In this document: one piece after another, positions 1 through 16,817 of the stretch
Position numbering within the stretch: position 1 is the first letter of the stretch
How the letters are laid out: the number at the start of each line of letters is the position of its first letter
Origin: Verrucomicrobiota bacterium
GTDB lineage: Bacteria > Verrucomicrobiota > Verrucomicrobiia > Chthoniobacterales > Terrimicrobiaceae
NCBI GenBank assembly: GCA_026398275.1
Contig: JAPLTF010000106.1
Coordinates: forward strand, 1 to 32,399
DNA: 32,399 bases
Reading direction: 5' to 3'
Program-made: the position numbers and the translations under genes
The notes under the pieces: generated by a model
Databases searched by the model: none
The model's input: only the letters and a program-made list of their open reading frames with translations
What the model was told of the DNA's origin: nothing

Positions 1-114
1 GGAATCCTCCAGATCGCCAAGCGCATGGCGCGCGGCTTCCGTAACTTCCATTACTTCCGCATCGCTGCCTACCTCAAAGCGGGCGGTCTTCAACTCAATA
101 TTGTTCATGCTTGA
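1..114 (+). mobile_element. C-terminal fragment of a transposase (ISL3-like), truncated by window edge
   Basis: The first 37 codons are open from the window edge to a TGA at 112-114. They contain an ARGFRNFHYFRIAAYL stretch. A similar basic/aromatic tail (ARGF/YRNF..YRL) closes many ISL3-type DDE transposases, so I read this as the last part of a transposase gene running in from the left. The rest of the gene and any terminal inverted repeat lie outside or cannot be recognised. Its stop codon overlaps the start of the next gene (ATG at 107-109), which is unusual for an IS border. It may mean that the element end supplies translation of, or has replaced the upstream region of, the alpha-galactosidase gene. 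The family assignment rests on motif memory only. Confidence 0.55.
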
Positions 115-2281
115 ACCCACTCAAAACGTCGAAGCGGCCAAATTCACGATACACGAAAACGGGATTCAGCTTGTCCTGCAAACCCCGGCGGATGCGCCGG
201 TGCGGCTGCTGCAGTTCGCGCCGGAGGGCACACCGCTGGATGTGCCGGAGGAGCTTTATTATTGCTTCCCGTTGGTTGAGGTTCGCGGCACGGGCATCGC
301 GGGCGGAAGCGCCCCGAAGGGGGCGCATTACCTCGGCTGTCACCCGGGCTCCGCGCTGCGCTATCGAAGCCATCGGGACCACCGCACAACAGCAGGGCGC
401 AAGTTGGAGATCCTGCAGGTTGGAGAGGGACTGGAAGTGGTCAGCCATTTCCAATTCCACGATGACGCGCCGCTGGTGAGGGTCTGGACAGAGCTGCTCA
501 ACCGGAGCGAAAGGCCGGTGGGGCTGACCTATGTGGCGTCATTTGCGCTCACCGGGTTGGGCCGGGTCACCGATGGGGATTTTGGGCAGGGACTCAGCTT
601 GTGGATTCCATTCAACAGTTGGGGCAATGAGATTCGCTGGAAGGAGCAGAGCCTCTTTGATCTTGGCTGGGCGCCGATGTGCGAATCCACCCAGCGCATC
701 AGCTTCCAGCAGACGGGCACGTGGCCTTGCAATGGGACCCTGCCGCTGGCTGTGCTTGCCGATGCCAGGCGCGGTACGGCACTCGCATGGCAAATCGAGC
801 ACAGTGGCTCCTGGCACTGGGAGTTGGGCACTTACGGCTACGACGTTGCCCTGCGTCTGAGCGGGCCAACGGAGAACGAAAACCACTGGTTCAAGCAATT
901 GGCGCCCGGCGAACGGTTTGTCTCAGTGACGGCGGCCGTCGGCGTGGTCACGGGAAAGTTTGAAACAGCCATCCAAGCCCTGACGCGATACCGTCGGAAA
1001 ATCCGGCGTCCGAGTCCCGACAATGAGAAATTGCCGGTGATCTTCAATGACTATTTTTGTCTTTGGGGCAATCCGTCCATGGAGAACCTCCGCCCGATGA
1101 TTCCGTTGGCGGCGGAAATCGGCTGCGAGGTATTCTGCATTGATTGCGGTTGGTATGCCGAGGGGAATTGGTACGACAATGTCGGGGAGTGGCGGCCCTC
1201 CGTCGCCCGGTATCCCGATGGCATCCAGGAGCCGATTGCGCTGATCCGTGCGCACGGAATGATTCCCGGCCTCTGGCTGGAGCTCGAAGTTATGGGCATC
1301 AATTGTCCTCTGGCTGCAACGCTGCCCGATGACTGGTTCTTTGTCCGGCACGGCCGCCGTTTGGTGACGGACCACCGTTATCATCTCGATTTCCGCAACC
1401 CAGGGGTGATCCGCTTTGCCGATGAGGTGGTCGATCGCCTGGTGGGCGAGTATGGCATCGGTTACATCAAGATAGATTATAACACGAGCGCCGGACTGGG
1501 CACGGAGTTGCATGCCGACAGTTTTGGCGAAGGACTCCTCGGGCACAACCGGGCCTACCTCGCCTGGCTGGATCGGGTCTTTGAGCGCTACCCGGAGCTG
1601 GTGATCGAAAACTGTGGCAGCGGCGGCATGCGCATGACCTACGACCTCCTCAGCCGGCACAGCGTGCAGTCGATCAGCGATCAGACCGACTATCGGAAAC
1701 TGGCCTATATCGCGGCGGCCATCGCCTCGGCCATCGCCCCGGAACAGTGCGGGGCTTGGGCCTATCCCTTGCGCAATGACGACGACGAGGCGGTGGCCGT
1801 CAATATGGTCAACGCCATGTTGCTACGCATGTTTGTGAGTGGTCATTTGGCGGAATTATCCGATTCCCGCCGCGCGCTGATGGCGGAGGCAATCGCGGCC
1901 TACAAGACGATTCGAAATGATATTCGTGAGGGTGTTCCCTTCTGGCCGCTGGGGATGCCGGAGTATCCCGATGCCTGGCTGGCCTACGGCACCACGGCGG
2001 GGAGCCGTTCGTATCTTTCACTCTGGAACATGGGGGACGAAACAGGCTCGATCGCTCTCTCGTTGCCAGCGTTTCGCGGCCAACCGCTTGAGGTCGATGT
2101 CGTGTATCCGGCCCGTCGTCCAGTAGCCTGGCAGTGGCATCCTGAGTCCGCGACACTGCGGATGCAACTCGCCCAAGGGTGTGCCCGGGTGCTGAGATTA
2201 GTCCAAAGCACGGACGAAGTTCGGTCCAATGTTGAAATCCAAATGGCAGCCGAAGTCGAGAGTCTGATCAAGAAGATCTGA
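107..2281 (+). CDS. GH36-type alpha-galactosidase (first of three tandem copies)
   Basis: Predicted to release terminal alpha-galactose from oligosaccharides by a retaining mechanism. The 724-residue protein has the usual GH36 order: an N-terminal beta-sandwich (about residues 10-300), a central TIM barrel (about 300-620) and a short C-terminal beta domain. The barrel begins around VIFNDYFCLWG and carries FCIDCGWY. YIKIDYN supplies the likely nucleophile D457, and ENCGSGGMRM followed by SISDQTD supplies the likely acid/base D525. The 68-residue spacing between them fits the family. No signal peptide is seen, so a cytoplasmic location is inferred. I prefer the ATG at 107 to a TTG at 101. No clear ribosome-binding site is visible because the upstream sequence is transposase coding. 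The next gene starts 7 bases after the stop, so the two are probably cotranscribed. Substrate linkage cannot be read from the sequence. Confidence 0.9.
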   Translation: MLEPTQNVEAAKFTIHENGIQLVLQTPADAPVRLLQFAPEGTPLDVPEELYYCFPLVEVRGTGIAGGSAPKGAHYLGCHPGSALRYRSHRDHRTTAGRKLEILQVGEGLEVVSHFQFHDDAPLVRVWTELLNRSERPVGLTYVASFALTGLGRVTDGDFGQGLSLWIPFNSWGNEIRWKEQSLFDLGWAPMCESTQRISFQQTGTWPCNGTLPLAVLADARRGTALAWQIEHSGSWHWELGTYGYDVALRLSGPTENENHWFKQLAPGERFVSVTAAVGVVTGKFETAIQALTRYRRKIRRPSPDNEKLPVIFNDYFCLWGNPSMENLRPMIPLAAEIGCEVFCIDCGWYAEGNWYDNVGEWRPSVARYPDGIQEPIALIRAHGMIPGLWLELEVMGINCPLAATLPDDWFFVRHGRRLVTDHRYHLDFRNPGVIRFADEVVDRLVGEYGIGYIKIDYNTSAGLGTELHADSFGEGLLGHNRAYLAWLDRVFERYPELVIENCGSGGMRMTYDLLSRHSVQSISDQTDYRKLAYIAAAIASAIAPEQCGAWAYPLRNDDDEAVAVNMVNAMLLRMFVSGHLAELSDSRRALMAEAIAAYKTIRNDIREGVPFWPLGMPEYPDAWLAYGTTAGSRSYLSLWNMGDETGSIALSLPAFRGQPLEVDVVYPARRPVAWQWHPESATLRMQLAQGCARVLRLVQSTDEVRSNVEIQMAAEVESLIKKI

Positions 2282-2288
2282 GGACATC

Positions 2289-4319
2289 ATGATAAAGGAA
2301 AACGTGATGAGGAATGTCAAGATGACAATGAATGAAAATGGCCTGTGTTTCGTCGATGCCGACGCAAATATGGGGGTGAAGGATTTTGGACTCCGCCTGA
2401 CAGTGGCGGGGAAAGACGTCGTTGTCCGTTATGGGGCGGCGACCGGGGCGGATGGTGTGGTGACAGCCGAGGCTGACGCCGGGAGTGGCCTAACGGTGCG
2501 CACCACGGCAACCCCCGTGAGCGGCTTGCGCGCTGTGGTGCTGCAACACCGGCTGGCGAATACGTCCAATAAACCCGTCTGGATCAGCGCGGCCGCCACC
2601 GGGCAATTCGCGGAGTCTGCGGCCGTGCTGCATGGCAAGGGGAGCTCGCTGGGCTGGGACCTGCGCTGCTGCCACACCGACCATGTCCGCACCGAGCATT
2701 ATCCCCACTGCCAGATGGAATATCCCTACTTGAGGATGCTGCCGACTGAAACGATGCGCCTGGGCCGGGGCGAGGATCAGGCTTTTCCCGCGTTTTTCAT
2801 CAAGGATCTGCAAGGCAAACAGGGCATGGTCTTGGCCGCCGCCTCGCAGACGTTGAACTATACGACGTTCGAACTGCGCAAGGGTGGCATGGTCAATCGC
2901 AGCATCTTCGAGGAGTTCGCCATCCAGCACGACCCCGGCCAAAGTGGCGGCTTCGAAGTGCCGGCGGGCGGGACCTTGGAATTGGACGGCGTGTTCATTC
3001 AGATCACCGGCAACCTTGCGACGGAAGACGCCTTCGTGGACTACCTCAACTTCCTGGTCACGCGCTTCACCTTCCGAGGACCGAAAACGCCGATCCTGCG
3101 CGAGGCGTTCCACTGCACTTGGAACTACGGCGTCTTCGCCGACCAAAGTGAGCAGTCGCTTTTGCCGACGGCGCGCTTCATCGCGAAGAACTTCCCGAGT
3201 CTTAAGTGGTTTCTAATGGATGCGGGCTATCTTATTGACAGCACCTTCCTTGACCATTTCTATCCCGATCCGAATCAGCATGTGTCTGCCGAGAAATGGC
3301 CTCGCGGCATTCGCAGTTACACGGACGAACTGCGGAAGTTGGGGCTGCGGCCCGGCATCTGGTGGTCTCCGACCGTGTCCGTTCCCTCACAGCTTCATAC
3401 GGATCATCCGGATTGGTTCCTCCGCAACGCCGATGGCTCGCTCTACCTGATCGGCGACACCAATGCGTTCCTGGATTACAGCAATCCCGAGGCACTAGCC
3501 TTCCTTGACAGGACTTTGGCGGTGATCCTGGGTGAGTGGGGCATGGATGCCTGTAAGATGGATTTCTGGAGCCAGATTGTGGAGGATCGGCATATCCGGC
3601 TGCAAAATCCACGGCTGACCTCGGTGCAGGTGCGGACGCGCTTTTTCGAGACCATCCGCAAGCATCTGCCGCCGGACGGCATCTTCATGACCTGCGTGGC
3701 CACCGGCATGGGGAATCCCTTCATCGGCCAGCATGCCGACACCTATCGCAACACCATTGATGTGGGGGTCGGCACGTGGGACGAGCAGGTGCGCAACTGC
3801 ATCTGGTCCTTGCCCACGCTGGGATTTGAGGGCCGCAAAACCTTCCTGCTCAACAACGACAGCGTCGGCATCATGCCGGAATATCCGGACAACGAAAACT
3901 TCTTCCGGTTTACCTGGAGTTTCATGAACATGGGCCTCATCGAGACCGGAGGCCGCATGGAGACCTGGCCCGACAAGTGGGTGCAGGCGATGCGCAAGCT
4001 TACCGACCGCTGCGATCGCGGCTATCGCGTGCATTGTCCGGACGATCGCGCCTTCACCGGCGTGCCGCTGCCCGAGGTGTTGCTTGTGGACTATCCCGCT
4101 GGCAGCCCCACCGCCAAGGCGGGCATCCGCCAATCCGTCGCCCTCTTCAACTGGAGCGACGAGGCCCGCGTCATCTCCGTTCCCCGCGCACGGCTCAGCC
4201 ATACCGGCCCGGTGGTGGCGGAAAACTTCTGGACCGGCGAGCGCGAGACGCTGGAGGGCGAGTTCATCAGCAGGCGCCTCGATGGCCGCTCGGCGGTCTT
4301 GTATGATGTGAAGGCATAA
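2289..4319 (+). CDS. GH36-like (clan GH-D) alpha-galactosidase homologue, divergent
   Basis: A second clan GH-D enzyme of 676 residues, different in sequence from its neighbours. An N-terminal beta-sandwich (about 1-270) precedes a TIM barrel containing LKWFLMDAGY, LRPGIWWSP and the likely nucleophile D425 in ACKMDFW. The RxxxD motif R487-D491 (YRNTIDVG) lies 66 residues on and is the best acid/base candidate. A short beta domain closes the protein. No signal peptide is present. The start at 2289 has a GAGG at 2280-2283 overlapping the preceding stop. In-frame ATG codons at 2307 and a little further on are alternatives. The next gene follows after about 26 bases. The divergence from copies 1 and 3 argues for different specificity (for example another alpha-galactoside linkage or alpha-N-acetylgalactosamine) rather than a recent duplication. 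Assignment to clan is firm; the substrate is unknown. Confidence 0.85.
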   Translation: MIKENVMRNVKMTMNENGLCFVDADANMGVKDFGLRLTVAGKDVVVRYGAATGADGVVTAEADAGSGLTVRTTATPVSGLRAVVLQHRLANTSNKPVWISAAATGQFAESAAVLHGKGSSLGWDLRCCHTDHVRTEHYPHCQMEYPYLRMLPTETMRLGRGEDQAFPAFFIKDLQGKQGMVLAAASQTLNYTTFELRKGGMVNRSIFEEFAIQHDPGQSGGFEVPAGGTLELDGVFIQITGNLATEDAFVDYLNFLVTRFTFRGPKTPILREAFHCTWNYGVFADQSEQSLLPTARFIAKNFPSLKWFLMDAGYLIDSTFLDHFYPDPNQHVSAEKWPRGIRSYTDELRKLGLRPGIWWSPTVSVPSQLHTDHPDWFLRNADGSLYLIGDTNAFLDYSNPEALAFLDRTLAVILGEWGMDACKMDFWSQIVEDRHIRLQNPRLTSVQVRTRFFETIRKHLPPDGIFMTCVATGMGNPFIGQHADTYRNTIDVGVGTWDEQVRNCIWSLPTLGFEGRKTFLLNNDSVGIMPEYPDNENFFRFTWSFMNMGLIETGGRMETWPDKWVQAMRKLTDRCDRGYRVHCPDDRAFTGVPLPEVLLVDYPAGSPTAKAGIRQSVALFNWSDEARVISVPRARLSHTGPVVAENFWTGERETLEGEFISRRLDGRSAVLYDVKA

Positions 4320-4337: not shown

Positions 4338-4345
4338 AAATGACC

Positions 4346-6487
4346 ATGAACCCAAACGCAAACCCAACTGCAGATGAACTGCTGACGACGCACAGATGGG
4401 TCTCCGCCGCAGTCCTCAGACAAGCGACGGCCTTGGACGGGACAAGTATGGCCGTCTCGGGGGCCAAATTCTCAACGGCGATCCCCTTCTCGTTTGTCTA
4501 TGGGGGAAAACCTTCCGCACAACTCCTGCCGTCATGGAAATATTCCATAAGGAAGGAAGCCGGAATGCCTGGGACGGAAAAGTATGTTATTACGTATCTT
4601 GATCCGGCCACAGGACTCCAGATTGCATGCGAAGCCGTGGTCTATAACGATTACCCGGCGGTCGAGTGGCTCTTGCGCCTGACGAACACCGGCACGGTGG
4701 ACACACCGATTATCGAGAACATTCTCCCTTTGGACATGGGCATCACGACCCCGGACAAGGGCGCCGCTCCATTCCCCGGACTCGTCGATGTCATGTTGCA
4801 TCACGTTTACGACAGCGGTAGAACGTGCACTGATTACTTGCCACAGGAAAAATTGGTTTATCCCGGGGCGGACATAACGCTTTCGCCGCACATCAAATCG
4901 GTAGATCTCGAAGCGATGCAATCTCGTGAAGAACGCATGCCTGTATGGGCCAGGAAGCCCGGGAGCATTCCGTATTTCAGTCTCGAATGGTCCGGCGGTG
5001 GGGTCGTGGGCGGAATCGGGTGGACCGGAATGTGGCGTTTCGACCTCCGCCGCGATCAGGGGCGCGAGTTGACCATGCAGGTCGGACAAGATCTCACGCA
5101 CCTGAAACTGCATCCGGGCGAGTCGATCCGCTCACCCAGTGTCCTGCTGGTCCCCTGGCAGGGAAACGACCGGATGCGTGGGCACAATTTCCTGCGTCGC
5201 CTATTGTTAGCGCATTATGTTCCGAAGGTCGATGGCCAGATCCCCGTTGTTCCGATTTCTCATTGTTGTTGGTTTTACTTGGATTCAGGCAATAACGGTA
5301 CGGAAGAGATTATGTTTGATGTTATTGACAAGTTGTCATCGTTTGGGGTGGAGGCTTTCTGGCTTGACGCCGGTTGGTTTGAAGGTGGCTGGCCAAATGG
5401 GGCAGGCAATTGGATGCCTCGACCCGAGCAGTATCCACGTGGGCTCAAGCCTATAGCTGACGCGGCTAAAAAACATGGGATGAAGTTCATCCTTTGGTTC
5501 GAGTCTGAGCGAGTTGTACGCGATACAAAGATACAGCGGGAGCATCCCCAGTGGGTAATCGGTGAGCGACTGCATCGGGAATTCGCCCTTGAGGAAAGTG
5601 GATATATAGAAGGTGAGGTGTTCAATCAGGGCGATCCGGCAGCACGGCAATGGATGACTGATTTTTTATCAGATTGTATTGCAGAGTGGGGAGTCGATAT
5701 TTATCGTCAGGATCGTAATTTTGTGCCTTTGAGTTGTGTCAACGCTTACGAGAAGGATGATCGGCAGGGCATGGCTGAGATCCGTTACGTGGAGGGGCAT
5801 TACGCCATGTATGACGAACTGCTGCGACGTCATCCCGGGCTTATGATCGACAACGCAAATTGGCGGAATACAGGTTGTGACCTGGAAATGGTGAAACGGA
5901 CTATTGGCTCACTCACGAGATCCGAATGGACCATCTTCCCGAGTGAGTCTAATCAATCCTATGATCAAATGGGGACAGCGGCGCTGAGTCAATACGTCCC
6001 CCTGAGCGCGTCGCTCATCCATGGATTTGACCCGTACCGTGTCCGTTCTGGCGCGACCAGCGGCGTAGGGTTTTGCCTCGATCCGCGGGACAAAATGTTC
6101 CCAGTCGAGCAGGCGCGCCGCGCCGTTGAGGAGATCCGGTCGTTGCGTCCCTATTGGAGCGGCGACTTCTATCCCTTGGTCGAGAGAATCGACTCAGATG
6201 ATCGCAACTGGTGCGCCTGGCAGTTCCACCGTCCCGATCTCGATGCAGGTTTCGCCGTCTTCTTCCGCCGCAGCAAGTGCCCCTTTGTGCTGGTCGAGAT
6301 TGCCTTGCGCGCTATCGATCCGCATGCGAATTACAAAGTCGCCTTCAAAGAGACCTACGATGTCAAAGAAGAACGGACGATGTCCGGCGCAGATCTGGCG
6401 AAACTGCGAGTCGAGATCCTTGACGCGCCCGGGAGCGTATTGGTGACCTACGAGAATCCCACTCACCTCGCGGCTGCTCCTCTGTGA
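4346..6487 (+). CDS. GH36-type alpha-galactosidase with altered acid/base motif
   Basis: Third GH36-type protein, 713 residues from the ATG at 4346. The N-terminal beta domain (about 1-320) is followed by a barrel with FWLDAGWFEGGW and KFILWFESERV (the WFExE strand typical of GH36). The likely nucleophile is D456 in DIYRQDRNF. The segment aligned with the usual acid/base (D.CASGGRR ... RSD) reads DNANWRNTGCDLE ... LTRSE. At the expected position, 71 residues after the nucleophile, there is Glu (E527) instead of Asp, and the Cys and double-Gly are missing. The enzyme may have a different bond or leaving-group preference, or reduced activity. Base use between about 5220 and 5990 is visibly more AT-rich than in flanking genes, hinting at separate acquisition. 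No signal peptide is present. A 67-base gap separates it from the GH2 gene. Confidence 0.85.
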   Translation: MNPNANPTADELLTTHRWVSAAVLRQATALDGTSMAVSGAKFSTAIPFSFVYGGKPSAQLLPSWKYSIRKEAGMPGTEKYVITYLDPATGLQIACEAVVYNDYPAVEWLLRLTNTGTVDTPIIENILPLDMGITTPDKGAAPFPGLVDVMLHHVYDSGRTCTDYLPQEKLVYPGADITLSPHIKSVDLEAMQSREERMPVWARKPGSIPYFSLEWSGGGVVGGIGWTGMWRFDLRRDQGRELTMQVGQDLTHLKLHPGESIRSPSVLLVPWQGNDRMRGHNFLRRLLLAHYVPKVDGQIPVVPISHCCWFYLDSGNNGTEEIMFDVIDKLSSFGVEAFWLDAGWFEGGWPNGAGNWMPRPEQYPRGLKPIADAAKKHGMKFILWFESERVVRDTKIQREHPQWVIGERLHREFALEESGYIEGEVFNQGDPAARQWMTDFLSDCIAEWGVDIYRQDRNFVPLSCVNAYEKDDRQGMAEIRYVEGHYAMYDELLRRHPGLMIDNANWRNTGCDLEMVKRTIGSLTRSEWTIFPSESNQSYDQMGTAALSQYVPLSASLIHGFDPYRVRSGATSGVGFCLDPRDKMFPVEQARRAVEEIRSLRPYWSGDFYPLVERIDSDDRNWCAWQFHRPDLDAGFAVFFRRSKCPFVLVEIALRAIDPHANYKVAFKETYDVKEERTMSGADLAKLRVEILDAPGSVLVTYENPTHLAAAPL

Positions 6488-6554: not shown

Positions 6555-8684
6555 ATGAAAAATCTTCTCACTATGAAACATCCGAAACCTATTCTTATTA
6601 ATCTCGCTTCCGCATCCGGAATTCGCTGGCAGTTCTGTCCGGAAAACGGCGCTTGGGGCGAGATTCAAGTGCCGGCTGGCGGCTGGCGGACGCAGGGGCA
6701 TTCCTGCGATGCGGGTACTTACCGCGCGGAAATACCGATTCCGGAGGCTGCGGCCGGACATGTGGTCCTCGTTGCCTTTGCCGCCGTCAATTTCGGTGCC
6801 GAAGTTTTTGCGGGCCCCGATGCCGACCATCTCATGCGGGTGGCTGGGCATCTGAATGGCTGGCTGCCTTTCACGGCCGACCTGACGCCGCACATCATAC
6901 CGGGCCGGACGATCCTGCTGGTGGTCGAGGTCAAAGGACGAAAAAAATATTTGCGTGACGGCAAGTATATCATTCCAGAGGGGGCGGGCTGGTTCGACGG
7001 GTTGGCCGATGGAATTATCCGGGACATCGAAATGCAGGTTCTGCCTCCTGTGTTTATTGAGGATGCCTGGGTTCGCACCCGAGTGGACGAGGACTTCATC
7101 GAACCGGAAGTCACGCTAGTAAATGCCACCGCCGGGGCGGCTGTGATTTCTCTGGACGGACGGTTGTCCGCTGCTCTGGGCACGGGCGACTTCCCATACC
7201 CTACGATCCCTACATTAACCGTGACGCTGACAGCGGGGGAGCGGCGGACGGTGAGCCTCGGGCGCACCCTTTGGGGACTTGGAAGCGCCAGTTACTGGTG
7301 GCCGAATGTGCCTTATCGTCCGGATTATCGAGCCCGGCAGCATTGTCTGACCCTGACGGCGAGCGTCGAGGGCAGCGATGCGCACACCGTGGATCAGCGC
7401 TTCGGGTTCCGTCAATTCGAAGCCAAGGGTTGTCATTACTATCTTAATGGAATTCGTTGTAACCTGCGAGGCGATAATCAGCAGGAGGCAAATTTTGGCA
7501 CCGACGCCTATGGCATTTTTCCAGGGTTTGGGCCACCAACCGTCGAGAATCCGGGCTGGCCCCAGGCGGTCGACAATCTGCTGCGCGTCAATTTCAACGT
7601 CATGCGCATCCATCAGATTCCAGCCACCCCTTACATGCTGGATGTCTGTGATGATCTCGGGCTCATGATTGTCGTCGAGTCCCCGGTGCGGGGATCGGAA
7701 TATCTGGAGGATTTTGTTGCGGGGAAAGAAAACATGATCGCGTCCGACCGTGAATTGGTCCGGCGTGACCGCCGCCATCCCTCGGTGGTTCTCTGGAGCG
7801 CCGGCAACGAGACCTGGGGGCAGCGTGGCTTGATGCTCGCCTGCATCGCGGGCATCATGGCTGAGGATGATACCCGGCCCGTCATTGTGGATGGAGTGGA
7901 GGACATGGGGTGGCCGATCATCAACATGGAGCATTATGTGGGCGAAGGGTATTGCAACGGGCAGTTGGGCGTTTTGCCGGAGTTTGGCGGGACGCCACGC
8001 ACTGATCGCCCCTATGGGGAGACCGAGTGCGTCTGGCCCATGGACAACAGTTGGCAGGGCTTCGCCTGGATGTCCACCTGCACCCGCATCCGGCGTCTCA
8101 AGGGGAACGCCGACATCCGTAATTATGTCCTGAACAATGCCTGGTCCAATTATGTGCCCGGACAATCGGATAGGTTACAGCACTTGGAGAAACTAATCAG
8201 GAAGATGCAGTGGACTCTGGAGCCTCCATTTTCGACCGAGATCTGTCCGGCGTTGGAAGACACGTGGAATCATCCCCTGATCCGGTTGATGCAGAAGTGC
8301 TTCAACCCCGTGGCTATTTGCGATATTCAGTTTGACGACGCCAATAAGCGGAGCAATGAGAACGGCGACTGGCCGGTGGTTAGACCCCTATTGCGAGCCG
8401 GGGTGATTGAGAGTCGTGAATTGGCGATTTTCAATGACGAGTTCAGCGGAGAAGAGGTGGTTGTATCATGGGAATTGCGATGCGAGAGGTATACCACTCC
8501 GCTGCTGGATCGCGGCGCTTTCACGCTCCGCATTCCCTTGGGTGAGTTCCGGCGGCGCGCCGTTCAGCTTCACATTCCGCCACACATAATGGGCGAGGTG
8601 CAGCTTGTGCTGAGTGCCGCCAAAAATGGAGAGAAGCGTTTTTCTGAGGAGGCTATTTTCTTTGAGGTGCGTCCATGCGAGTGA
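6555..8684 (+). CDS. GH2-family glycoside hydrolase (beta-galactosidase/beta-glucuronidase-like)
   Basis: A 709-residue protein with the GH2 layout: sugar-binding jelly-roll domain (about 20-165), immunoglobulin-like domain (about 165-285) and a TIM barrel beginning near FRQFEAKGCHYYLNG, where GH2 enzymes carry F.(K)..F.LNG. NVMRIHQIP and YMLDVCDDLGLMIV are typical early barrel strands. SAGNET gives the acid/base candidate E419. The nucleophile is less clear, and E476 in LPEFGG is my best guess. The protein ends in a short beta domain. GH2 covers beta-galactosidase, beta-mannosidase, beta-glucuronidase and others, and the sequence alone does not decide between them. No signal peptide is seen. 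Position after three alpha-galactosidases suggests sequential trimming of a galactose-containing glycan. The final 10 bases overlap an ATG that opens the next, decayed frame. Confidence 0.85.
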   Translation: MKNLLTMKHPKPILINLASASGIRWQFCPENGAWGEIQVPAGGWRTQGHSCDAGTYRAEIPIPEAAAGHVVLVAFAAVNFGAEVFAGPDADHLMRVAGHLNGWLPFTADLTPHIIPGRTILLVVEVKGRKKYLRDGKYIIPEGAGWFDGLADGIIRDIEMQVLPPVFIEDAWVRTRVDEDFIEPEVTLVNATAGAAVISLDGRLSAALGTGDFPYPTIPTLTVTLTAGERRTVSLGRTLWGLGSASYWWPNVPYRPDYRARQHCLTLTASVEGSDAHTVDQRFGFRQFEAKGCHYYLNGIRCNLRGDNQQEANFGTDAYGIFPGFGPPTVENPGWPQAVDNLLRVNFNVMRIHQIPATPYMLDVCDDLGLMIVVESPVRGSEYLEDFVAGKENMIASDRELVRRDRRHPSVVLWSAGNETWGQRGLMLACIAGIMAEDDTRPVIVDGVEDMGWPIINMEHYVGEGYCNGQLGVLPEFGGTPRTDRPYGETECVWPMDNSWQGFAWMSTCTRIRRLKGNADIRNYVLNNAWSNYVPGQSDRLQHLEKLIRKMQWTLEPPFSTEICPALEDTWNHPLIRLMQKCFNPVAICDIQFDDANKRSNENGDWPVVRPLLRAGVIESRELAIFNDEFSGEEVVVSWELRCERYTTPLLDRGAFTLRIPLGEFRRRAVQLHIPPHIMGEVQLVLSAAKNGEKRFSEEAIFFEVRPCE

Positions 8685-8996
8685 AGCCCTCGAGGAAGTA
8701 TCTCAAATGGGTAATGGCAAAGCCGCCGGACAGCCCTGTTTTTCATGGGATCTCGCTGAAGGTCCCGTTCGGACAAAAAGGTGGCATTCGCGGGCCACTC
8801 GGGAAGCGGGAAAAACACCTTGGTCTCGCGTTTAAAACGGTTCTGCCGTCTGCCCGACGGGCGAATCTTTGCCTCTGCGGGACCAGACATCGCTCACTGG
8901 TATGTGATCGCGGAGGAGGTCGGCTGGGCCCGCGATCTGGGTATTCCGGTCTTCTGCTGCAATGAAATGATCCACGGGGCTTTAGTCTCTCCATGA
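8675..8996 (+). pseudogene. Chimeric remnant: frameshifted ABC-exporter ATPase fragment fused to an unknown C-terminal tail
   Basis: From the ATG at 8675 the frame reads PDSPVFHGISLKVPFGQ, the start of an ABC-exporter nucleotide-binding domain. At an A5 run (8775-8779) the homology jumps to the next frame, KVAFAGHSGSGKNTLVSRL, which is a Walker A motif. Removing one A would join the two parts seamlessly. The Walker A Ser/Thr is Asn here, and homology stops after about 50 residues (PDGRI) with no Walker B or signature motif. The second frame continues into AHWYVIAEEVGWARDLGIPV and ends at the TGA 8994-8996. That tail faintly recalls DUF4406 or nucleoside-deoxyribosyltransferase-like proteins, which is a weak guess. 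The stop overlaps the start of the SGNH gene (ATGA), so the tail may be the real end of the gene that once preceded SGNH. Confidence 0.65.
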
Positions 8997-9634
8997 AAAT
9001 CCTATTCCAAGGTGACTCGATCACCGACGCCTTCCGCAAGCCGGAGGAAATCAATCCCGCCTACCAGCTCGGTAACGGATACGCCTTTCTCGTCGCCGCG
9101 CACCTCGGGGCGCAGTATCCGGATCGCCGGTTCGAGTTCATCAATCGTGGAGTCAGCGGCCAGGCCGTCCAGCATTTGGCGGAGCGCTGGCAGACAGACG
9201 CGCTGGACGTTCAGCCCGATCTCCTCTCCCTGCTCGTTGGGGTCAACAACATCCTCCGCAGGAACAATGGCCAGCCGGATATCCCGGATGCCGGGTTTCT
9301 GGAACTCTACCGCGGCCTTCTGGATCAACTGCTCGCACAAAACCCTCATGTTCGCTTTCTCCTGATCGAGCCGTTCCTCCTGCAGGCGGGCACCGTGACG
9401 GAAGAGATGTCCGCTTCGTTCAGGCCGATCCAGAAAGGAATCGCGGCGATCGCGAGCGATTTCGACGCGCCCTTCATTCCTTTGCAGAGCATTTTTGATC
9501 GCGTGCTGTCGCGGGCTCCGGCCGCTTATTGGGCCTATGACGGCATCCACCCCACCCATGCCGGATTTCAGTTGATCACGGAAGCCTGGCTCAGGACGGC
9601 AGAGTCGCATCAGCTTCTCACTCCGGTCGCATGA
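8993..9634 (+). CDS. SGNH/GDSL-family hydrolase, probable carbohydrate O-acetyl esterase
   Basis: A 213-residue, single-domain SGNH hydrolase predicted to remove acyl (probably acetyl) groups from sugars, which exposes them to the neighbouring glycosidases. All four blocks are present: ILFQGDSIT with nucleophile Ser9; the Gly of NRGVSGQA; the Asn of LLVGVNN; and DGIHPTHAG with Asp183 and His186. No signal peptide is seen. The start overlaps the preceding remnant stop and its own stop overlaps the GH29 start (ATGA at 9631-9634), so the genes are probably translationally coupled. Its last 117 bases recur at 16497-16613. Esterase chemistry is well supported by the motifs; acetyl specificity is inferred from context. 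Confidence 0.88.
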   Translation: MKILFQGDSITDAFRKPEEINPAYQLGNGYAFLVAAHLGAQYPDRRFEFINRGVSGQAVQHLAERWQTDALDVQPDLLSLLVGVNNILRRNNGQPDIPDAGFLELYRGLLDQLLAQNPHVRFLLIEPFLLQAGTVTEEMSASFRPIQKGIAAIASDFDAPFIPLQSIFDRVLSRAPAAYWAYDGIHPTHAGFQLITEAWLRTAESHQLLTPVA

Positions 9635-9794
9635 ACGATTCCTGGTTTACTGAAGCCCGATACGGGCTCTTCATCCACTACGGTCTTTACTCGCTGCTCG
9701 AACGCGGAGAGTGGGTCTGGAACCGCGAGGAAATCCCGCGTGAGGAATACAGGGCGCTAGCCGCGCGGTTTACCGCCAAGGACTTCGATGCCGA
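9518..9794 (+). repeat. Source copy of a 277-bp SGNH/GH29 junction duplication (partner at 16497-16773)
   Basis: This segment covers the last 39 codons of the SGNH gene and the first 54 codons of the GH29 gene. It aligns without gaps to 16497-16773 at a constant offset of 6979 bases with about 26 mismatches counted by eye (about 90 % identity). The homology ends inside both genes. Confidence 0.92.
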
Positions 9795-10899
9795 TTGGCT
9801 CTGCCGGATGGCGGTGGATGCCGGCATGCGCTATGTGGTGCTTACCACGATGCACCACGAGGGCTTCCGGCTTTATCCGACGGAGCTTTCGGATTTCCAC
9901 ATCGGCAACAGCGGCGCAGCCGGGCGCGATCTAGTAGCGGAAATCATCGCCGCCACGCGCAAGCACCGGCTCAAGGTCGGCCTCTACCACAGCCTCAACA
10001 ACTGGTATGACCAACCGGACGCCGTCGCCGCGCTGGAAGATCCCGCCGCCTACGAAAAGTTCATTACTGCGACGCACGCCCGCATCCGCGAACTCGTCAC
10101 CCGCTACAACCCAATCGATATCCTCTGGTATGACGGTTGGTGGCCGTTCAACGCCGGGGGCTGGCAGGCGGAGAAGATGAATGCCATGGTGCGCGAGATC
10201 CAGCCGCACATCCTCTTCAACGGCCGCAATGGGCTGCCCGGCGACTTCGCGACCCCCGAGCAACATCTCAGCGCGCCGAATCCGTGGCATCCATGGGAGG
10301 CCTGCGTGACGATGAACGAGAGTTGGAGCTTCCATGCCGGAGATCACGAGTGGAAGACCGAGTCGCACCTACTCGACATGCTCGCCCGTTGCTCCCAGGG
10401 CAACGGCAACCTCCTCCTCAATGTCGGCCCCATGCCGGATGGTATCGTGCCCGAGCCCTGCGTGCGCGTGCTGCACCGCGTCGGCGCATGGCTCCTCAAA
10501 AACGGCGAGGCGATCTACGGCACGGAACTCTTCACCTTCAGCCTGCAGGAGCGCGACGACCATCGCGGCGACTGGAATTTCCACGGCCCGATGACGGTGA
10601 AAGGAAACTCCCTCTTCTGGCTGCTACGGCGTCCGCCCGGCGACAAGGCGACCCTCGGCGGCCTGCAAAGCAATGTCGTCTCTGTGAGCCGCCTCGACAA
10701 CGGCGAGGCACTGCCTTTCACCCAGACCGGAACGCGCCTCCAGATCGCCATTGTGCCCGCAACCGACGAGACCGGCCTCTGGCCGGCGCTGCGCATCGAG
10801 TGCGATACGCCCCCCGTTGTCTATCAAACCGGCGGACTCCGAGTGCCGAAGGCCCCGCATCCGCACTACGACCCGTGCCCCTCAGACATAGCGCATTAA
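9631..10899 (+). CDS. GH29 alpha-L-fucosidase
   Basis: Predicted to hydrolyse terminal alpha-L-fucose by a retaining mechanism. The 422-residue protein opens with the family hallmark RYGLFIHYGLYSL, then YVVLTTMHHEGF (most members have KHHDGF, so the Asp is Glu here) and GLYHSLNNWY. The likely nucleophile is D168 in ILWYDGWW. GNGNLLLNVGPMPDG closes the barrel near residue 275, and a beta domain of about 130 residues follows. The acid/base Glu is not conserved across GH29 and I do not assign it. No signal peptide is seen. The gene is coupled to the SGNH gene by ATGA and followed 9 bases later by the CBM9-like gene, whose AAGGA site overlaps this stop. Its first 54 codons are duplicated, truncated, at 16610. 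Confidence 0.92.
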   Translation: MNDSWFTEARYGLFIHYGLYSLLERGEWVWNREEIPREEYRALAARFTAKDFDADWLCRMAVDAGMRYVVLTTMHHEGFRLYPTELSDFHIGNSGAAGRDLVAEIIAATRKHRLKVGLYHSLNNWYDQPDAVAALEDPAAYEKFITATHARIRELVTRYNPIDILWYDGWWPFNAGGWQAEKMNAMVREIQPHILFNGRNGLPGDFATPEQHLSAPNPWHPWEACVTMNESWSFHAGDHEWKTESHLLDMLARCSQGNGNLLLNVGPMPDGIVPEPCVRVLHRVGAWLLKNGEAIYGTELFTFSLQERDDHRGDWNFHGPMTVKGNSLFWLLRRPPGDKATLGGLQSNVVSVSRLDNGEALPFTQTGTRLQIAIVPATDETGLWPALRIECDTPPVVYQTGGLRVPKAPHPHYDPCPSDIAH

Positions 10900-10908: not shown

Positions 10909-11532
10909 ATGAAAAGCTCGCCTTACACCTGGCCATTCGGCCAACCCTGGCTCCCGCAAACCGAACCAGCTTTCGCGCCGGGCCAGGTTTTCATAGCCTG
11001 CGAGAACGACGCGCTCGTGATCCGTGCCGAACTGAACGACGCGCACGTCACGCAGGACGTTTTCCCGCTCAACTTTCCGGCGTTCATGCACTGCGACGCC
11101 TTCGAGATCTTCCTCGGACCGGCTGACGAGAAGGCCTACTACGAACTCCATGTGACGCCTTCGAACAGCGTGCTTCAGCTTCGATTTGACGGTGGGGGGG
11201 AAGCGAAACCGCTTGAAGAACTCACGGTCGCTGAGCCGCTGTTTACGAGTGAAACCGCGATCATGCCCGAGGGATGGAGCGTCATTGCCCGAATCCCGCT
11301 CGACGGACTGTTCCCAACAACGCATCCCGAATGGCTTCTCTCCTTCGGCCGCTACGACTACACGCCGGGGCAGACCAATCCGGTGATCTCGTCTACCTCG
11401 CCGCATACTGTCTGCAATTTCCACCGCAAAGAGGAGTGGCGGCGGGTGAGGTTGGTTGACGGGGTGCATCCGACCGCCGCCGGCCACATGTTGATGGCCC
11501 GGACGTGGCTGAAACAAATTGGCACTGCCTAA
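10909..11532 (+). CDS. CBM9-like (DOMON-type) domain protein with an SGNH-hydrolase tail grafted on
   Basis: Residues 1-180 look like the carbohydrate-binding family 9-like beta-sandwich: FIACENDALVIRAELNDAHV, CDAFEIFLGP, YYELHVTPSN and the closing FHRKEEWRRVRLV. Such domains usually end there. The remaining 25 residues, beginning DGVHPTAAGHMLMARTWL, instead match block V of SGNH hydrolases (compare DGIHPTHAG in the esterase at 8993). I infer a recombination that replaced the last codons and stop of the CBM9-like gene with the 3' end of another SGNH gene. The nucleotide sequence differs clearly from the other SGNH tail, so a third SGNH copy was involved. AAGGA at 10898-10902 gives a good ribosome-binding site. 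No signal peptide is seen. A binding role is likely; free-standing intracellular CBM9-like proteins in such clusters are of unproven function. Confidence 0.75.
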   Translation: MKSSPYTWPFGQPWLPQTEPAFAPGQVFIACENDALVIRAELNDAHVTQDVFPLNFPAFMHCDAFEIFLGPADEKAYYELHVTPSNSVLQLRFDGGGEAKPLEELTVAEPLFTSETAIMPEGWSVIARIPLDGLFPTTHPEWLLSFGRYDYTPGQTNPVISSTSPHTVCNFHRKEEWRRVRLVDGVHPTAAGHMLMARTWLKQIGTA

Positions 11533-11551: not shown

Positions 11552-13483
11552 ATGAATAATCCTTGTTCACAAATCACTTGGTCGGGCACGCCGCCGACCA
11601 CCGTGCAATTGACGGGATCCGGCTGGGTCGAGGCGGCCTGGGGCGTGCCGGCTGGCAAGTCCTTTGCCGCGACCTGCCGGCTGTTGCTGCCGGAAACGGA
11701 GGAGCCGTTCTGGTGTATCCCCGGCTTGTTTTGGGGCGACAACCAGCAGGACCGCACCGGCCAATACTACCCGCGATTTCGTGCCGGAATGGACGCGCCA
11801 CGCCGCTTCGAAAGTTCGTTTTGGGAGTTCAGCGTGGCGCGTGCGGCGCAACCAGTCGCCGCCATGTTCGACGGCGTGGGGTGCTGGATTCTTCAGGTCA
11901 CGCCCGCTGCGGGTGATCTTTGCGCGAGCGTGGGATTCGAATATGAGCATGGCCGCCCGGTGCTGGTGGCTTCGCTGCCGGCAAGTGAGCGGCCTTATCG
12001 CAACGCGGGCCATGATTACACGATGCCCGTGATCGGTTCCTCCACTTCGGATCATGCCCGCAAAATCATCTGGGCAGTCCGGGCGCTGCGCTTGGAGGGC
12101 GGCTGTAGCTCGCTCCTGGATTTTCTCCAGACCAACTACCACGCCCAAGAGGATCGCGCCTTTGTATTGCCGGAGGCCGATTATGCGGGCACCACGCGGA
12201 ATGCCCTGATGAATTGGCACTATCATCCGGGGGACCACTACTTCCGTTACACGGTCGCCTTCGACCGGGTGGGACAGCAGATAGCCGAGGCAATGGGGGC
12301 GTCCCTTGATCGCCACGAGATGGCTCTTGGCTGGGTGAATGGATGGGTTGTCTTCGAGGCCCTCATCGAATACGCCGTGAAGCGCTCGGATGCGGAAGCA
12401 CTTCAGGCAGTGGAGGATGTTTGGAAAAATCTGACCGGATCCGGGCTGGTCTCCCCGAGCGGGTACTGGTGGACGCGCTTTGCTCCGTCGCGCGGACGGA
12501 CTCAGGGAATCTTTGACTCGAAGTCACCTGACGGATTTGATGGGAACTGGATGCCCGACCCGGATCATCTGCACATGCGGACGCTCGGCGATGCCGTCTG
12601 GCGCGCTGCCCGTTCGCTGCGCCGACACGGGAAGTCGCTCTCTTTTTCCTCGGCAGTGCAGGATCAACTTGTCGTCCAAGCCGGTCAGGTCGCCGGTCTC
12701 GCCCGGCGAGGCTGGCCGCTCCCGCTCAGCGTCGATGCCCGCACCGGAGAACCGACGGGATTACACGGCACCGCCGCAATGATTTGGATCTCGGTCTGGG
12801 CGGAACTCGCCGCGATGGGGCAGTGGAGCGACACCGCTCTCATAGCGCAGGGGCTCGACCATTACCGGGCCGATGTCGAGTCGGGGCAGCTTTTCGGCGC
12901 GCCGGAGGATGTCGGCGAATGCGTCACCTCTGAGGACATCTACATTGCCGTGAATGCGTATCTGGACGGCTATCGCGTGACCCGGCGGCCCAGAGATTTG
13001 GAGACGGCCCTCCAAGCCGCCCGGTGGATTTATATCTGGCGGAAAGCCTTCAATCACTCGCTCGATCCGAGGACGATCATCGGCGTTTACCAGTTGAAGA
13101 GCCGGGGTGGAGACCTCGCCTCGTTCAAGAACAATCACGTTCACCTCTATGGGCTCGATGCGGAAGAAAGCTTATTGGAACTCGCCACACTAACCGGCGA
13201 CAACCGCTGGCGCGAGCTGGCCGATGACCACTGGAAGTTTGCCGCCCAGCTCACGCCCGTCGTGGACGGCCAGTTCAACGCCTACGAAGGGATGGTGACC
13301 GAACAGTTCTATTTCATTGACTGGTCGGCGCTGGGAAATTCCGTGCGCCAGTTCGAGGACGACGAGCGCCGCTCGAGCTACGATGTCGGTCCGCATTACC
13401 GGAACCACGGCAACCTTGCCGGATTCTCGCACGCCTGGTGCACCGCATTCGTATTGCGCAGCGCCCTCAGGAGAACTTTATGA
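11552..13483 (+). CDS. Unrecognised 643-residue protein, probable (alpha/alpha)-barrel carbohydrate-active enzyme
   Basis: I do not recognise this family with confidence. Residues 1-200 are beta-rich with many aromatic residues (FWCIPGLFWGDNQQ, SFWEFSV). Residues about 215-640 alternate helices and Trp/His-rich loops in the manner of six-hairpin toroid glycosidases and polysaccharide lyases: ALMNWHYHPGDHYFRYTVAF, GNWMPDPDHLHMRTLGDAVW, VSEDIYIAVNAYLDGYR-like stretches, FKNNHVHLYGLDAEESL, YEGMVTEQFYFIDWSALG. Conserved-looking acids in GECVTSEDIY and TEQFYFID are candidates for catalysis. The ATG at 11552 is preferred; a TTG at 11519 would add 11 residues overlapping the upstream gene. No signal peptide is seen. 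It closes the + strand array and overlaps the next small frame by ATGA. It could be a glycosidase, a lyase or an epimerase-like protein. Confidence 0.8.
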   Translation: MNNPCSQITWSGTPPTTVQLTGSGWVEAAWGVPAGKSFAATCRLLLPETEEPFWCIPGLFWGDNQQDRTGQYYPRFRAGMDAPRRFESSFWEFSVARAAQPVAAMFDGVGCWILQVTPAAGDLCASVGFEYEHGRPVLVASLPASERPYRNAGHDYTMPVIGSSTSDHARKIIWAVRALRLEGGCSSLLDFLQTNYHAQEDRAFVLPEADYAGTTRNALMNWHYHPGDHYFRYTVAFDRVGQQIAEAMGASLDRHEMALGWVNGWVVFEALIEYAVKRSDAEALQAVEDVWKNLTGSGLVSPSGYWWTRFAPSRGRTQGIFDSKSPDGFDGNWMPDPDHLHMRTLGDAVWRAARSLRRHGKSLSFSSAVQDQLVVQAGQVAGLARRGWPLPLSVDARTGEPTGLHGTAAMIWISVWAELAAMGQWSDTALIAQGLDHYRADVESGQLFGAPEDVGECVTSEDIYIAVNAYLDGYRVTRRPRDLETALQAARWIYIWRKAFNHSLDPRTIIGVYQLKSRGGDLASFKNNHVHLYGLDAEESLLELATLTGDNRWRELADDHWKFAAQLTPVVDGQFNAYEGMVTEQFYFIDWSALGNSVRQFEDDERRSSYDVGPHYRNHGNLAGFSHAWCTAFVLRSALRRTL

Positions 13484-13726: not shown

Positions 13727-14569
13727 CTAAGCACTGGCGAGACTTTCCAGAAAGTTGCGGCTTCCGAGTACCGCCTCTTCACCGGCGACCTCAAGCGTGG
13801 TATGGCCATCGAAGCCCGCCTTGAGGAGCGCTCGATAGACCGCCTCGATTCCCACCACTCCCGCGCCGAGAGCAATCGTCGCCATACCGCACCCGAAGAC
13901 TTTGCCGCGCCGGGATTCCATCTCTACGGGCATGTCTTTCCAATGCACATGCTCGATCTTCGCGCCAAACTTGCGGACATAGGCGACCGGATCACCTCCG
14001 CCAAGCCAGAGATTGCCGGTATCCAGATTGAGACCAAGTGCTGGTGAGTCGCACGAATCGAGCACGCGCTCGGTGAGCGCGATATTGTCGGAGATCCGGC
14101 CGTGCGGCTCGAAGAGAATCTTCACTCCCATGTCTTCAGCCAGACGCAATGGTTCGTGCAGTTTTTCCCGCACCAAGAGGATCGCCTCGGAATCCGAAAG
14201 GTTTTCTCCAAATGCCGTCAACGGCTCGCCTTCGGTAGTGATCACATGCCGGACCCCGATGGCCGCCGCGGATTTCACCGCCTTGATGATCTGCGCGGTG
14301 CCGTAGCGCCAGGGCGCGCTCGGATCCAGCAGGTTGCCGTGCGCGCACCAGGCTGAAATCTGCAGACCGTGCTTTGCAAAAAGCCGGGCGATGTCATGCG
14401 GATTCCCGTCCAGGCTGGCGAGAGCGGTGAAGCCAAACTCCACGCCCAGACAGGCGCCGTCGGAGTTGTCGGTGACATCGGCATGCGAAAATCCCCAGCG
14501 GGCAATTTGCTCGAGTTGGACTTCCAGTGGCCGATACGGGGTGTTGGCGGCAAAACAGCCTGTTTTCAT
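13727..14569 (-). CDS. Sugar phosphate isomerase/epimerase-type TIM barrel (AP_endonuc_2 fold)
   Basis: A 280-residue xylose-isomerase-like barrel predicted to act on a sugar or keto-sugar with a divalent metal. Likely metal ligands sit at the expected strand ends: Glu in ILFEPHG, Asp in NLDTGN, His in EHVHWKD and Glu near the C terminus in TLEVAGEE. VRHVITTEGE is the third strand. No signal peptide is present. It starts 2 bases after the stop of the Gfo/Idh gene, so the two are surely cotranscribed. Members of this fold paired with Gfo/Idh enzymes include inosose isomerases, 3-keto-sugar epimerases and partners of C-glycoside cleavage. The exact reaction cannot be read from the sequence. Confidence 0.87.
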   Translation of the reverse strand: MKTGCFAANTPYRPLEVQLEQIARWGFSHADVTDNSDGACLGVEFGFTALASLDGNPHDIARLFAKHGLQISAWCAHGNLLDPSAPWRYGTAQIIKAVKSAAAIGVRHVITTEGEPLTAFGENLSDSEAILLVREKLHEPLRLAEDMGVKILFEPHGRISDNIALTERVLDSCDSPALGLNLDTGNLWLGGGDPVAYVRKFGAKIEHVHWKDMPVEMESRRGKVFGCGMATIALGAGVVGIEAVYRALLKAGFDGHTTLEVAGEEAVLGSRNFLESLASA

Positions 14570-14571
14570 GG

Positions 14572-15615
14572 TCAGGTGGTTTGGTTTTTCCTGGCGATGG
14601 CATCGACCGGCCAGACATCGAGGTCGGAGGCCAGCGGGAAATCCACGCGGTCGCCAGTGAGCGCGGAGACATACAGGGCAAGGTTGAGTTCACTGGTCAG
14701 CAACTGATTGCTCGCTCCCAGATCGGGCTCCGGGCCGCCTTCCATCCAGTCGAAGAGCGCATTCCAGACCCCAAGCCACACTTCGGGACCGTAACTCGGC
14801 CGCGTGAACTCTTCGAAGCCATCCTTGGTTTGCAGGGCGCCCCTGCCTTCGTCCACGAGTCGGATCGCCCCCTCGCTGCCATTGATCTGCATGCAGCAGG
14901 AACCGATCGCGCTGCCGCCATCGAGCAGGGCCTTGCACCCGTTTTCAAAATGGAAATACCCCATCCCGTGCTCCTCCATCTGGTGGCCGAACGAGCGTAA
15001 ATCGCGCGTCCGGGTCTGGCCAAAGGCCCATTGCACCGGGGAGTCCGAATTCAGGAACCGGAAAATGTCCAGCCAGTGCGCGCCCCACTCCGAAAGATCC
15101 CAGTCGGCGATTCCCGCGCTCATCAGCGCGGGCGTGCCGATGCGTCCGGCGTCGATCAGGGCCTTGGCATGGACGAAAATCGGCTGGTATCGACGCATGT
15201 GATTCACCACGATTTTCACCCCGGTCTCGGCCACCAAGAGGCGGAGTTTTTTGATCTCGGCGGGCGAGTTGAGAAACGGCTTTTCGCAGAAGACGCCTTT
15301 CACGCCGGCCCGGGCGGCGGCCTCGATCATCGGGTAATGCGAGCCGACATAGGTGGCGAGCGCCACGACGTCCGGCTTGAGATCGCGGAGCATTTCCTCG
15401 TAGCTGGTGAAGCCTTGCGGAACACCGAATTTCTCGCGCCATGCCTGGAGATTTTCCTCGCTGATATCGACGCCGGCCAACAGGCTGCCGCGGGCCTGCC
15501 GGGCCAGCATCTCGGCGTGAATGTAGCCGATTTTGCAGCCGTCCTTGGGGCTGTCTTTCTGGGCCTTGCCCACGCCCACCAGGGCAATGCGATGGGGGTT
15601 TTGTTTGCGATTCAT
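14572..15615 (-). CDS. Gfo/Idh/MocA-family NAD(P)-dependent sugar dehydrogenase
   Basis: Predicted to oxidise a hydroxyl of a sugar or glycoside with NAD(P). The 347-residue form starting at the ATG at 15615 begins NPHRIALVGVG, the Rossmann strand. An extended loop (KAQKDSPKDGCKIGYIHAEML) separates this from the helix. Then come LATYVGSHYP and the family signature FCEKPF (Glu111-Lys112-Pro113), NHMRRYQP, and WGAHWLDIFRF with a likely catalytic His180. The C-terminal half is the mixed-sheet Gfo/Idh domain. A longer frame to 15699 exists but overlaps the upstream gene and adds no family sequence. The gene lies 29 bases downstream of the ThuA-like gene and 2 bases before the isomerase. Confidence 0.9.
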   Translation of the reverse strand: MNRKQNPHRIALVGVGKAQKDSPKDGCKIGYIHAEMLARQARGSLLAGVDISEENLQAWREKFGVPQGFTSYEEMLRDLKPDVVALATYVGSHYPMIEAAARAGVKGVFCEKPFLNSPAEIKKLRLLVAETGVKIVVNHMRRYQPIFVHAKALIDAGRIGTPALMSAGIADWDLSEWGAHWLDIFRFLNSDSPVQWAFGQTRTRDLRSFGHQMEEHGMGYFHFENGCKALLDGGSAIGSCCMQINGSEGAIRLVDEGRGALQTKDGFEEFTRPSYGPEVWLGVWNALFDWMEGGPEPDLGASNQLLTSELNLALYVSALTGDRVDFPLASDLDVWPVDAIARKNQTT

Positions 15616-15644
15616 GGGATGTCGATTTGGTTTTGCGATGAGGG

Positions 15645-16343: not shown

Positions 16344-16496
16344 TTTGGTGATCCTACCAGCCTCGGCTCATCATCGGCAAATATTTACAGTGGTGTTTCA
16401 TCATCCATTGCTGGTAAAAGACAACCATGCTTCTGCCCGATATTCCGCTCTGGACCGTTCCGATTTCCGCCCTGCCCAAGCTCCAGTCCAGCGGAG

Positions 16497-16613
16497 CCGG
16501 CCGCTTATTGGGCCTATGACGGCATCCACCCCACCCATGCCGGATTTCAGTTGATCGCGGATGCCTGGCTCAGGACGGCAGAGTCGCATCAGCTTCTCAC
16601 TCCCGTCGCATGA
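16497..16613 (+). pseudogene. SGNH hydrolase, 3' remnant
   Basis: Encodes only the last 39 codons of an SGNH hydrolase (DGIHPTHAGFQLIADAWL) with the intact stop at 16611-16613. Upstream codons, nucleophile and oxyanion blocks are gone. It is the broken paralogue of the gene at 8993-9634 and still overlaps the following GH29 remnant by ATGA. Confidence 0.88.
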
Positions 16614-16795: not shown

Positions 16796-16817
16796 CAGGA
16801 CCGCCGACTCGCGTGTG

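Follow-up and report, generated by a model that had tools for sequence, protein, structure and literature searches.

The locus studied here raises the question of what an unnamed protein contributes at the end of a run of glycosidase genes. Freshwater Verrucomicrobia have been proposed as important polysaccharide degraders (PMC5615132), and Verrucomicrobia sugar loci contain unnamed genes. The window analyzed is a whole contig (C114; 32,399 nucleotides) of a lake bacterium known from a 4.66-Mb draft genome (completeness 98.7, contamination 3.8), and the protein under study, P0001, has 643 residues. A preliminary description had proposed it as an unrecognised protein at the end of a glycosidase array, and the gene at 11552..13483 (+ strand, stop included) is indeed an ATG-initiated, uninterrupted open reading frame of 643 codons. 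Among three intact orthologues, dN/dS was 0.14 and 0.10 for the two pairs that include P0001 and 0.09 for the third, and this purifying selection relative to two intact orthologues indicates that P0001 is a real gene. Its third-position GC content (0.73) lies within the range of the seven preceding genes (0.62–0.80).

The position at the end of an array was likewise borne out, as the P0001 gene is the eighth and final member of a co-directional run in which neighboring genes overlap by 4 bp at the closest and lie at most 67 bp apart elsewhere, except for one gap of roughly 310 bp ahead of the SGNH gene. On the + strand, and annotated through Pfam unless stated otherwise, the run comprises a GH36/melibiase-like gene (101..2281; Pfam/NCBIfam, with 464 bits to a beta-L-arabinopyranosidase model, below its cut-off of 1100), a melibiase-like glycosidase (2289..4319), a second GH36/melibiase-like glycosidase (4340..6487), a GH2-type glycosidase (6555..8684; Pfam and NCBIfam), an SGNH/GDSL esterase-type gene (8993..9634), a GH29 alpha-L-fucosidase-type gene (9631..10899), and a gene for a 207-aa protein with a short SGNH-like C-terminal tail (10909..11532; Pfam and tail comparison). 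The contig begins just upstream of the first gene, and the run may thus be cut. Directly downstream of P0001, the genes lie on the opposite strand. A scan for promoters and terminators was near chance (1 and 6 found, versus 1.1 and 4.3 in shuffles). The C-terminal DGVHPTAAGHMLMARTWLK tail of the 207-aa protein resembles the end of the SGNH enzyme (10/19 identical), and the protein may combine a binding domain with what remains of another gene. P0001 had also been described as rich in Trp, His, and Asp: this stands for Trp (4.0%, joint highest among 17 window proteins), but not for His (3.1%) or Asp (6.4%), which are ordinary. A simple hydropathy scan, run in place of a signal-peptide predictor, found no N-terminal hydrophobic stretch in P0001.

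The preliminary description could not place P0001 in any GH or PL family, and this holds for Pfam and NCBIfam, neither of which gave a match up to E 1; a phmmer search of PDB sequences gave none up to E 10. Across 50 family members, Pfam matches at 0.01 were solely to toroid-type families, i.e., GH127 (PF07944) in 15 members (best 2.7e-7), GH88 (PF07470) in seven, GH76 in three (best 1.9e-7), N-acylglucosamine 2-epimerase (PF07221) in two (best 2.1e-6), and pectate lyase 2 in one. NCBIfam 2026 at 0.01 matched none of these 50, nor any of a second set of 16 members that partly overlaps the first and includes members from other phyla. RefSeq labels the members from Bacteroides, Segatella, Catenovulum, and Deinococcus “hypothetical protein.” By the libraries searched, the P0001 family thus appears to lack a name in Pfam, NCBIfam, and PDB, and to belong to the known six-hairpin toroid superfamily. 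The weak GH127 scores of relatives were rejected as grounds for GH127 membership of P0001, which had no such match up to E 1. Six of the relatives (L006, L009, L048, L049, L029, and L015) scored below 24.9 bits against the GH127 Pfam model, and the best-matching member (2.7e-7) may pass the Pfam cut-off. Weak matches at profile positions 453–535, seen in many genomes, were left unused: the one that was read (L032) looks, from its sequence, like a toroid of the thioredoxin/DUF255 kind.

P0001 was introduced as a candidate new carbohydrate-active family, and a new family confined to this locus can be rejected, since relatives occur throughout Verrucomicrobiota and beyond. At E up to 1e-20, a 13-row profile detected family members in 25 of 384 class-level genomes and in 43 of 387 sampled across the phylum, two overlapping samples that both include the genome studied here. 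Relatives at about 14–32% identity were found in Verrucomicrobiota, Actinomycetota, Bacteroidota, and Gammaproteobacteria, and more weakly in Deinococcota. The same genome encodes further members: on contig C109 (L054 11677–16541), two tandem and very unlike family members have a GH36-like gene on each side, and on contig C116 one member adjoins a GH36-like gene. In plasmid records, tblastn with P0001 retrieved a Nonomuraea relative at 31.6% identity over 86% of P0001 (32% over 572 columns), and a second query from the larger subfamily retrieved seven, from Streptomyces (two), Nonomuraea, Segatella, Catenovulum, Bacteroides, and Deinococcus. Scores against the profile of the 50-row family alignment (A5) were 733 bits for one Streptomyces relative, 416 for Nonomuraea, 174 for Catenovulum, and 160 for Bacteroides; the Segatella relative shares 51% identity with that of Bacteroides, and the Deinococcus relative was placed by alignment only. 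Taken together, these comparisons suggest that P0001 is one divergent branch within a large unnamed family. The proposal is supported by the missing name in Pfam and NCBIfam and by the toroid fold and invariant acids presented below; its confinement to this locus does not stand, and catalysis is something we infer.

Several of these relatives sit among sugar-utilization genes. The Bacteroides finegoldii relative, WP_055279373.1, lies between a GH88 gene, directly before it, and a GH43 gene, in a locus with GH2, GH130, GH115, and TonB/SusD genes, while the Segatella relative has GH43 on one side and TonB/SusD on the other, the Catenovulum relative an arylsulfatase on one side and TonB receptors on the other, and the Deinococcus relative is flanked by an aldose epimerase and a sugar ABC transporter. 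GH38 and ROK genes lie upstream of the Nonomuraea relative, and the stretch itself is unannotated, as in Streptomyces. The Nonomuraea record (NZ_LT559118.1, L128; 11.85 Mb) is filed as a plasmid in PLSDB and, judging by size, is probably the chromosome. A Pfam scan of 72 of the 121 genes selected within three genes of family members gave three MFS and three melibiase genes among the families listed, and two each for GH43, GH31, sulfatase, GDSL, and DUF5703 (25 of 90 families listed); these are raw counts, from which we claim no enrichment. A protein with a double metallo-beta-lactamase fold was also seen near a P0001-type gene in two phyla (L015 9839–11485 in Verrucomicrobia; L128 4313–6301 in Actinomycetota), the two proteins being 26% identical over 451 columns, and had no match in the genome studied here. 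A function for P0001 could be carried over to a large unannotated family, and a recurring “hypothetical protein” is now tied to a predicted fold, two candidate catalytic residues, and a multi-phylum sugar-utilization context.

Next, we considered the predicted fold. AlphaFold2, run with 50 alignment rows, modeled P0001 with a pLDDT of 86.9 and a pTM of 0.91, and structure prediction with a fold search yielded an (alpha/alpha)6 toroid preceded by a beta-sandwich, in agreement with the beta-rich N-terminus and subsequent helical hairpins noted from the sequence. The predicted N-terminal beta-sandwich spans residues 1–182 (11552..12097, + strand) and the toroid, supported by Foldseek and VIA-align, residues 205–643 (12164..13480, + strand). 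In the model, 12 helices of the toroid pair into six hairpins, as in the superfamily fold, and a loop at 592–616, after E584, has a pLDDT below 50. Foldseek placed the PL27 lyase BACCELL_00875 first (5nok and 5no8; 4e-7), followed by 2-epimerases and GH76, and its rows with long alignments include the two-domain hydrolases GH9 (5dgr, 3.2e-6), GH116 (8r1m, 1.6e-5), and GH52 (4rhh, 2.3e-5). VIA-align, for which the stated baseline without a clear match is a best Z of typically 7–8, or 14 for helical models, gave Z 28.1 for an exported protein (7tem; 327 residues, 2.9 A), up to 26.9 for GH76, and about 24–27 (up to 26.6) for sugar epimerases. PL27 reached Z 24.7 over 437 residues across both domains (rmsd 5.1 A) and alone among 50 rows was aligned from residue 1; 7tkv was aligned from residue 74 and the rest from residue 189 or later, and all 49 rows other than PL27 had Z 23.7–28.1 over 299–347 residues. 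Searched alone, the N-terminal domain had weak matches to FpGalactosaminidase (7e-3), then to a sialidase, an aldose 1-epimerase (0.048), and others, which would presumably fit the galactose-mutarotase-like beta-sandwich of several glycosidases; modeled alone, it had a pLDDT of 75.6. A viral structure library returned nothing useful for P0001.

Conservation was evaluated in A5 and in a wider 16-row alignment (A8). A5 consists of 51 reference rows less L080, L081, and L030, with P0001 and L007 added; L028, L029, and rows with little coverage of the profile also stayed outside it. Five residues are invariant in all 50 rows of A5, namely G449, E461, G519, N527, and E584. The segments GECVTSEDIY and TEQFYFID, where clustered acids had been expected to mark an enzyme, hold E461 and E584, the only invariant acids of that alignment. 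Both are candidate catalytic residues: E461 (codon 12932..12934, + strand) lies at the start of the helix 460–477, and E584 (codon 13301..13303, + strand) lies in the loop before the last helix. N527-N528-H529 (codons 13130..13138, + strand) precedes the helix 533–548. Of the 46 distant rows, 45 retain W629, 42 each retain W261, H529, and D590, 40 retain R343, and 35 each retain D347 and D453. All four relatives examined from three other phyla have E461, E584, R343, W629, N527, and H529, and one of the four has D590. In A8, every row keeps E461, and the only gap at E584 is a row that stops short of it; four of the 16 rows lack N527. Among six distant rows outside A5 (L080, L081, L085, L028, L029, and L030), E461 is present in 6/6 and E584 in 5/5 that reach this site, with N527 and H529 each in 1/6. 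The two Glu are thus kept in the most distant rows, where N527 and H529 are mostly lost, and we regard them as the stable core.

In the model, G260–G264, R343, E461, N527–H529, E584, and W629 are found at, or ahead of, the starts of five helices (265–278, 342–362, 460–477, 533–548, and 628–642). By a reading of the hairpin order, these five would form the inner ring and place the conserved residues on one face of the toroid, and E461 and E584 would then supply the conserved acids ahead of inner helices that characterize the superfamily. The column at residue 534, just after the N-x-H motif, holds Cys in 34 of 50 rows of A5 and Gly in the P0001 branch; it adjoins a stretch that weakly matches GH127 in relatives. 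Many members of the broad family have Tyr at positions 231 (37/49) and 500 (38/50), where P0001 has Phe, and none of the toroid Tyr residues of P0001 reaches 70% conservation among the 46 distant rows.

Two invariant Glu on a toroid face, a surrounding run of glycosidase genes, and the lack of a hydrophobic N-terminus are best explained by an intracellular exo-glycosidase. We therefore propose, with a probability of roughly one half, that P0001 belongs to an unnamed family of six-hairpin (alpha/alpha)6 toroids and acts inside the cell as a glycoside hydrolase, probably in exo mode, on imported oligosaccharides. Most likely, P0001 helps take complex sugars apart. Some relatives outside the branch have signal-peptide-like starts, as judged by eye, and “intracellular” is thus meant for the P0001 branch only. 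Under this proposal, the gene run would be co-transcribed, and P0001 would work alongside its GH36-like, GH2, GH29, and SGNH enzymes on imported oligosaccharides that may contain galactose, arabinose, or fucose and are probably of algal or plant origin. The toroid pocket, where the inner helices have their N-terminal ends, would hold the substrate, with E461 and E584 as putative acid and base and R343, N527, H529, and W629 shaping the pocket, and the reaction would be hydrolysis, in exo mode, rather than elimination. As a guess, we suggest arabinogalactan-like side chains as the substrate, in view of the kinship of the first gene in the run to beta-L-arabinopyranosidase, the GH36-like, GH2, and GH29 enzymes nearby, and the resemblance of P0001 to PL27 in shape.

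The main rival to hydrolysis is a beta-eliminating enzyme acting on uronic-acid glycans, either a PL27-like terminal-sugar lyase or a GH154-like uronate dehydratase that prepares the substrate for an unsaturated uronyl hydrolase, which we consider unlikely. The PL27 rhamnose-glucuronate lyase (BACCELL_00875, 5no8/5nok; L-rhamnose-alpha-1,4-D-glucuronate) tops the Foldseek list, is the nearest full-length fold, and matches P0001 over both domains, whose order is the same as the N-terminal beta-sandwich and (alpha/alpha)6 barrel given for PL27 in PMC8377490. Identity in the structural alignments is 8–10%, however, and PL27 chains are absent from the PDB sequences listed by the A5 (37) and A8 (47) profiles at E up to 10. 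PL27 membership of P0001 was rejected because the fold agrees but the sequence does not, and the B. finegoldii relative, which matched no PL27 chain up to E 1, was likewise rejected as a PL27 member. For GH154, PMC12269599 reports a glucuronate dehydratase that co-occurs with GH88 and GH105 and proposes two Tyr and an Arg as the catalytic set. The B. finegoldii relative, directly after a GH88 gene, is GH154-like in its placement, R343 and H529 are widely kept (R343 in 40/46), and Tyr is frequent at positions 231 and 500 in the broad family, but P0001, with Phe at each, has no well-kept toroid Tyr. No GH154 entry is among the PDB sequences listed by the A5 and A8 profiles, and no GH88 or GH105 match was found with Pfam and NCBIfam among the window proteins searched. 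Asn and His, the residue types at N527 and H529, are ones that lyases use, whereas paired invariant Glu are the usual signature of a hydrolase.

Other toroid enzymes resemble P0001 in part. GH76 alpha-1,6-mannanases (6u4z, 4v1s, and Aman6) share the toroid, and Aman6 gave a local profile match (5.6e-5; 8.5e-8 with the wider profile, over about 80 residues), but P0001 has no GH76 Pfam match, most matched GH76 chains are shorter (330–375 residues), and the GH76 catalytic Asp pair, mutated according to PDB titles, has no acidic counterpart around P0001 residues 402–406, where we take it to align. Local profile matches within the toroid also included yteR (1e-5), which we take to be a GH105 enzyme, and an unsaturated glucuronyl hydrolase (GH88; 0.0018), yet these chains are about 375 aa long and lack a P0001-type N-terminal domain, and P0001 has no Pfam match to them. 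GH127 beta-L-arabinofuranosidases use a catalytic Cys together with metal-binding Cys and Glu; other members have PF07944 matches, and the Cys at residue 534 in 34 of the 50 rows may correspond to one of theirs, but P0001 has no such match and has Gly there. It is improbable that P0001 is an N-acylglucosamine 2-epimerase-like sugar epimerase or isomerase carrying an extra beta domain. Many such enzymes are among the fold matches, and PF07221 is among the Pfam matches of relatives, but the matched chains are single toroids of 380–417 residues, and the catalytic His pair of N-acylglucosamine 2-epimerase would, if the loops correspond, be replaced by invariant Glu. Compatible with any of these mechanisms, the broad family may already hold a CAZy number that went unseen through Pfam, NCBIfam, and PDB, a possibility that we hold to be doubtful: relatives occur in Bacteroidota utilization loci, which CAZy studies closely, yet RefSeq has “hypothetical protein” in four genera and NCBIfam matched 0/50 and 0/16. 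Least probable of all, and in our view barely tenable, is a decaying or non-catalytic gene, a reading prompted by damaged copies elsewhere, of which those in the same genome and in G007 are truncated and that in G003 has lost internal sequence; P0001 itself is full-length, its dN/dS values are low, and all five invariant residues are present.

A more ambitious reading, which we offer only tentatively, is that P0001 and its relatives form a new CAZy-level family spanning at least five phyla (Deinococcota more weakly) in which the Glu pair would cleave a linkage outside the characterized classes, with the P0001 branch specialized, laterally moved, and directed to a freshwater phytoplankton glycan. 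Members of this branch were rare in a contig search of 84,980 species, which gave three loci from 108 pattern matches; the two peptide patterns are branch-specific, and this rarity thus applies to the P0001 branch alone. L015 (7986–9911; 84% identical to P0001) and L016 (80%; sequence identical with L006) are full length, while L017 (85%; identical with L007) is truncated. Of 58 related genomes, the one studied here included, six match P0001 at E up to 1e-3, with the P0001 branch in G000, G003, G007, and G025 and a distant relative in G020 and G057. P0001 and L015 are sisters in the tree (99/96), although the L015 genome is outside the order of our bacterium, in the same class, and the L006 genome is of the same family as our bacterium, which suggests lateral transfer. 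L015 has GH9-like, GH2, and GH29 genes as neighbors.

Broken copies are found alongside the intact ones. In G003, an internally deleted P0001 copy lies within a 378-aa open frame (L055 8949–10082), the G007 copy (L007 1501–2175) matches P0001 residues 417–641 only, and within the window itself a 277-bp segment (16497–16773) is 90.6% identical to 9518–9794, where the SGNH gene ends and the GH29 gene begins. This duplicated fragment and the cut or deleted copies suggest that pieces of the locus have been repeatedly copied and broken, with the P0001 copy intact. A second P0001 copy in the same genome (contig C1; L056 9977–10672), cut past about residue 165, immediately follows a GH9-like gene, with a tRNA-Phe gene (9875–9947) some 0.2 kb away, and possibly marks the edge of a mobile island. 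Upstream of this cut copy (L056 12476–17530) are genes for a URO-D-type protein, a SASA esterase, an unmatched 309-aa protein, by eye similar to one in L016, and a cytochrome P450, a class of enzymes that can demethylate methylated algal sugars. In the window, the opposite-strand stretch at 13727–20318 encodes a sugar-isomerase-like TIM barrel, a GFO/IDH/MocA oxidoreductase, a hydroxylase-like protein, a GH4-type enzyme, and a 232-aa ThuA-type protein that is 28% identical to a Pfam-confirmed ThuA in L125. Further along, at 29155–29470, a small protein has internal repeats in which a TTSKFGDG-type unit recurs.
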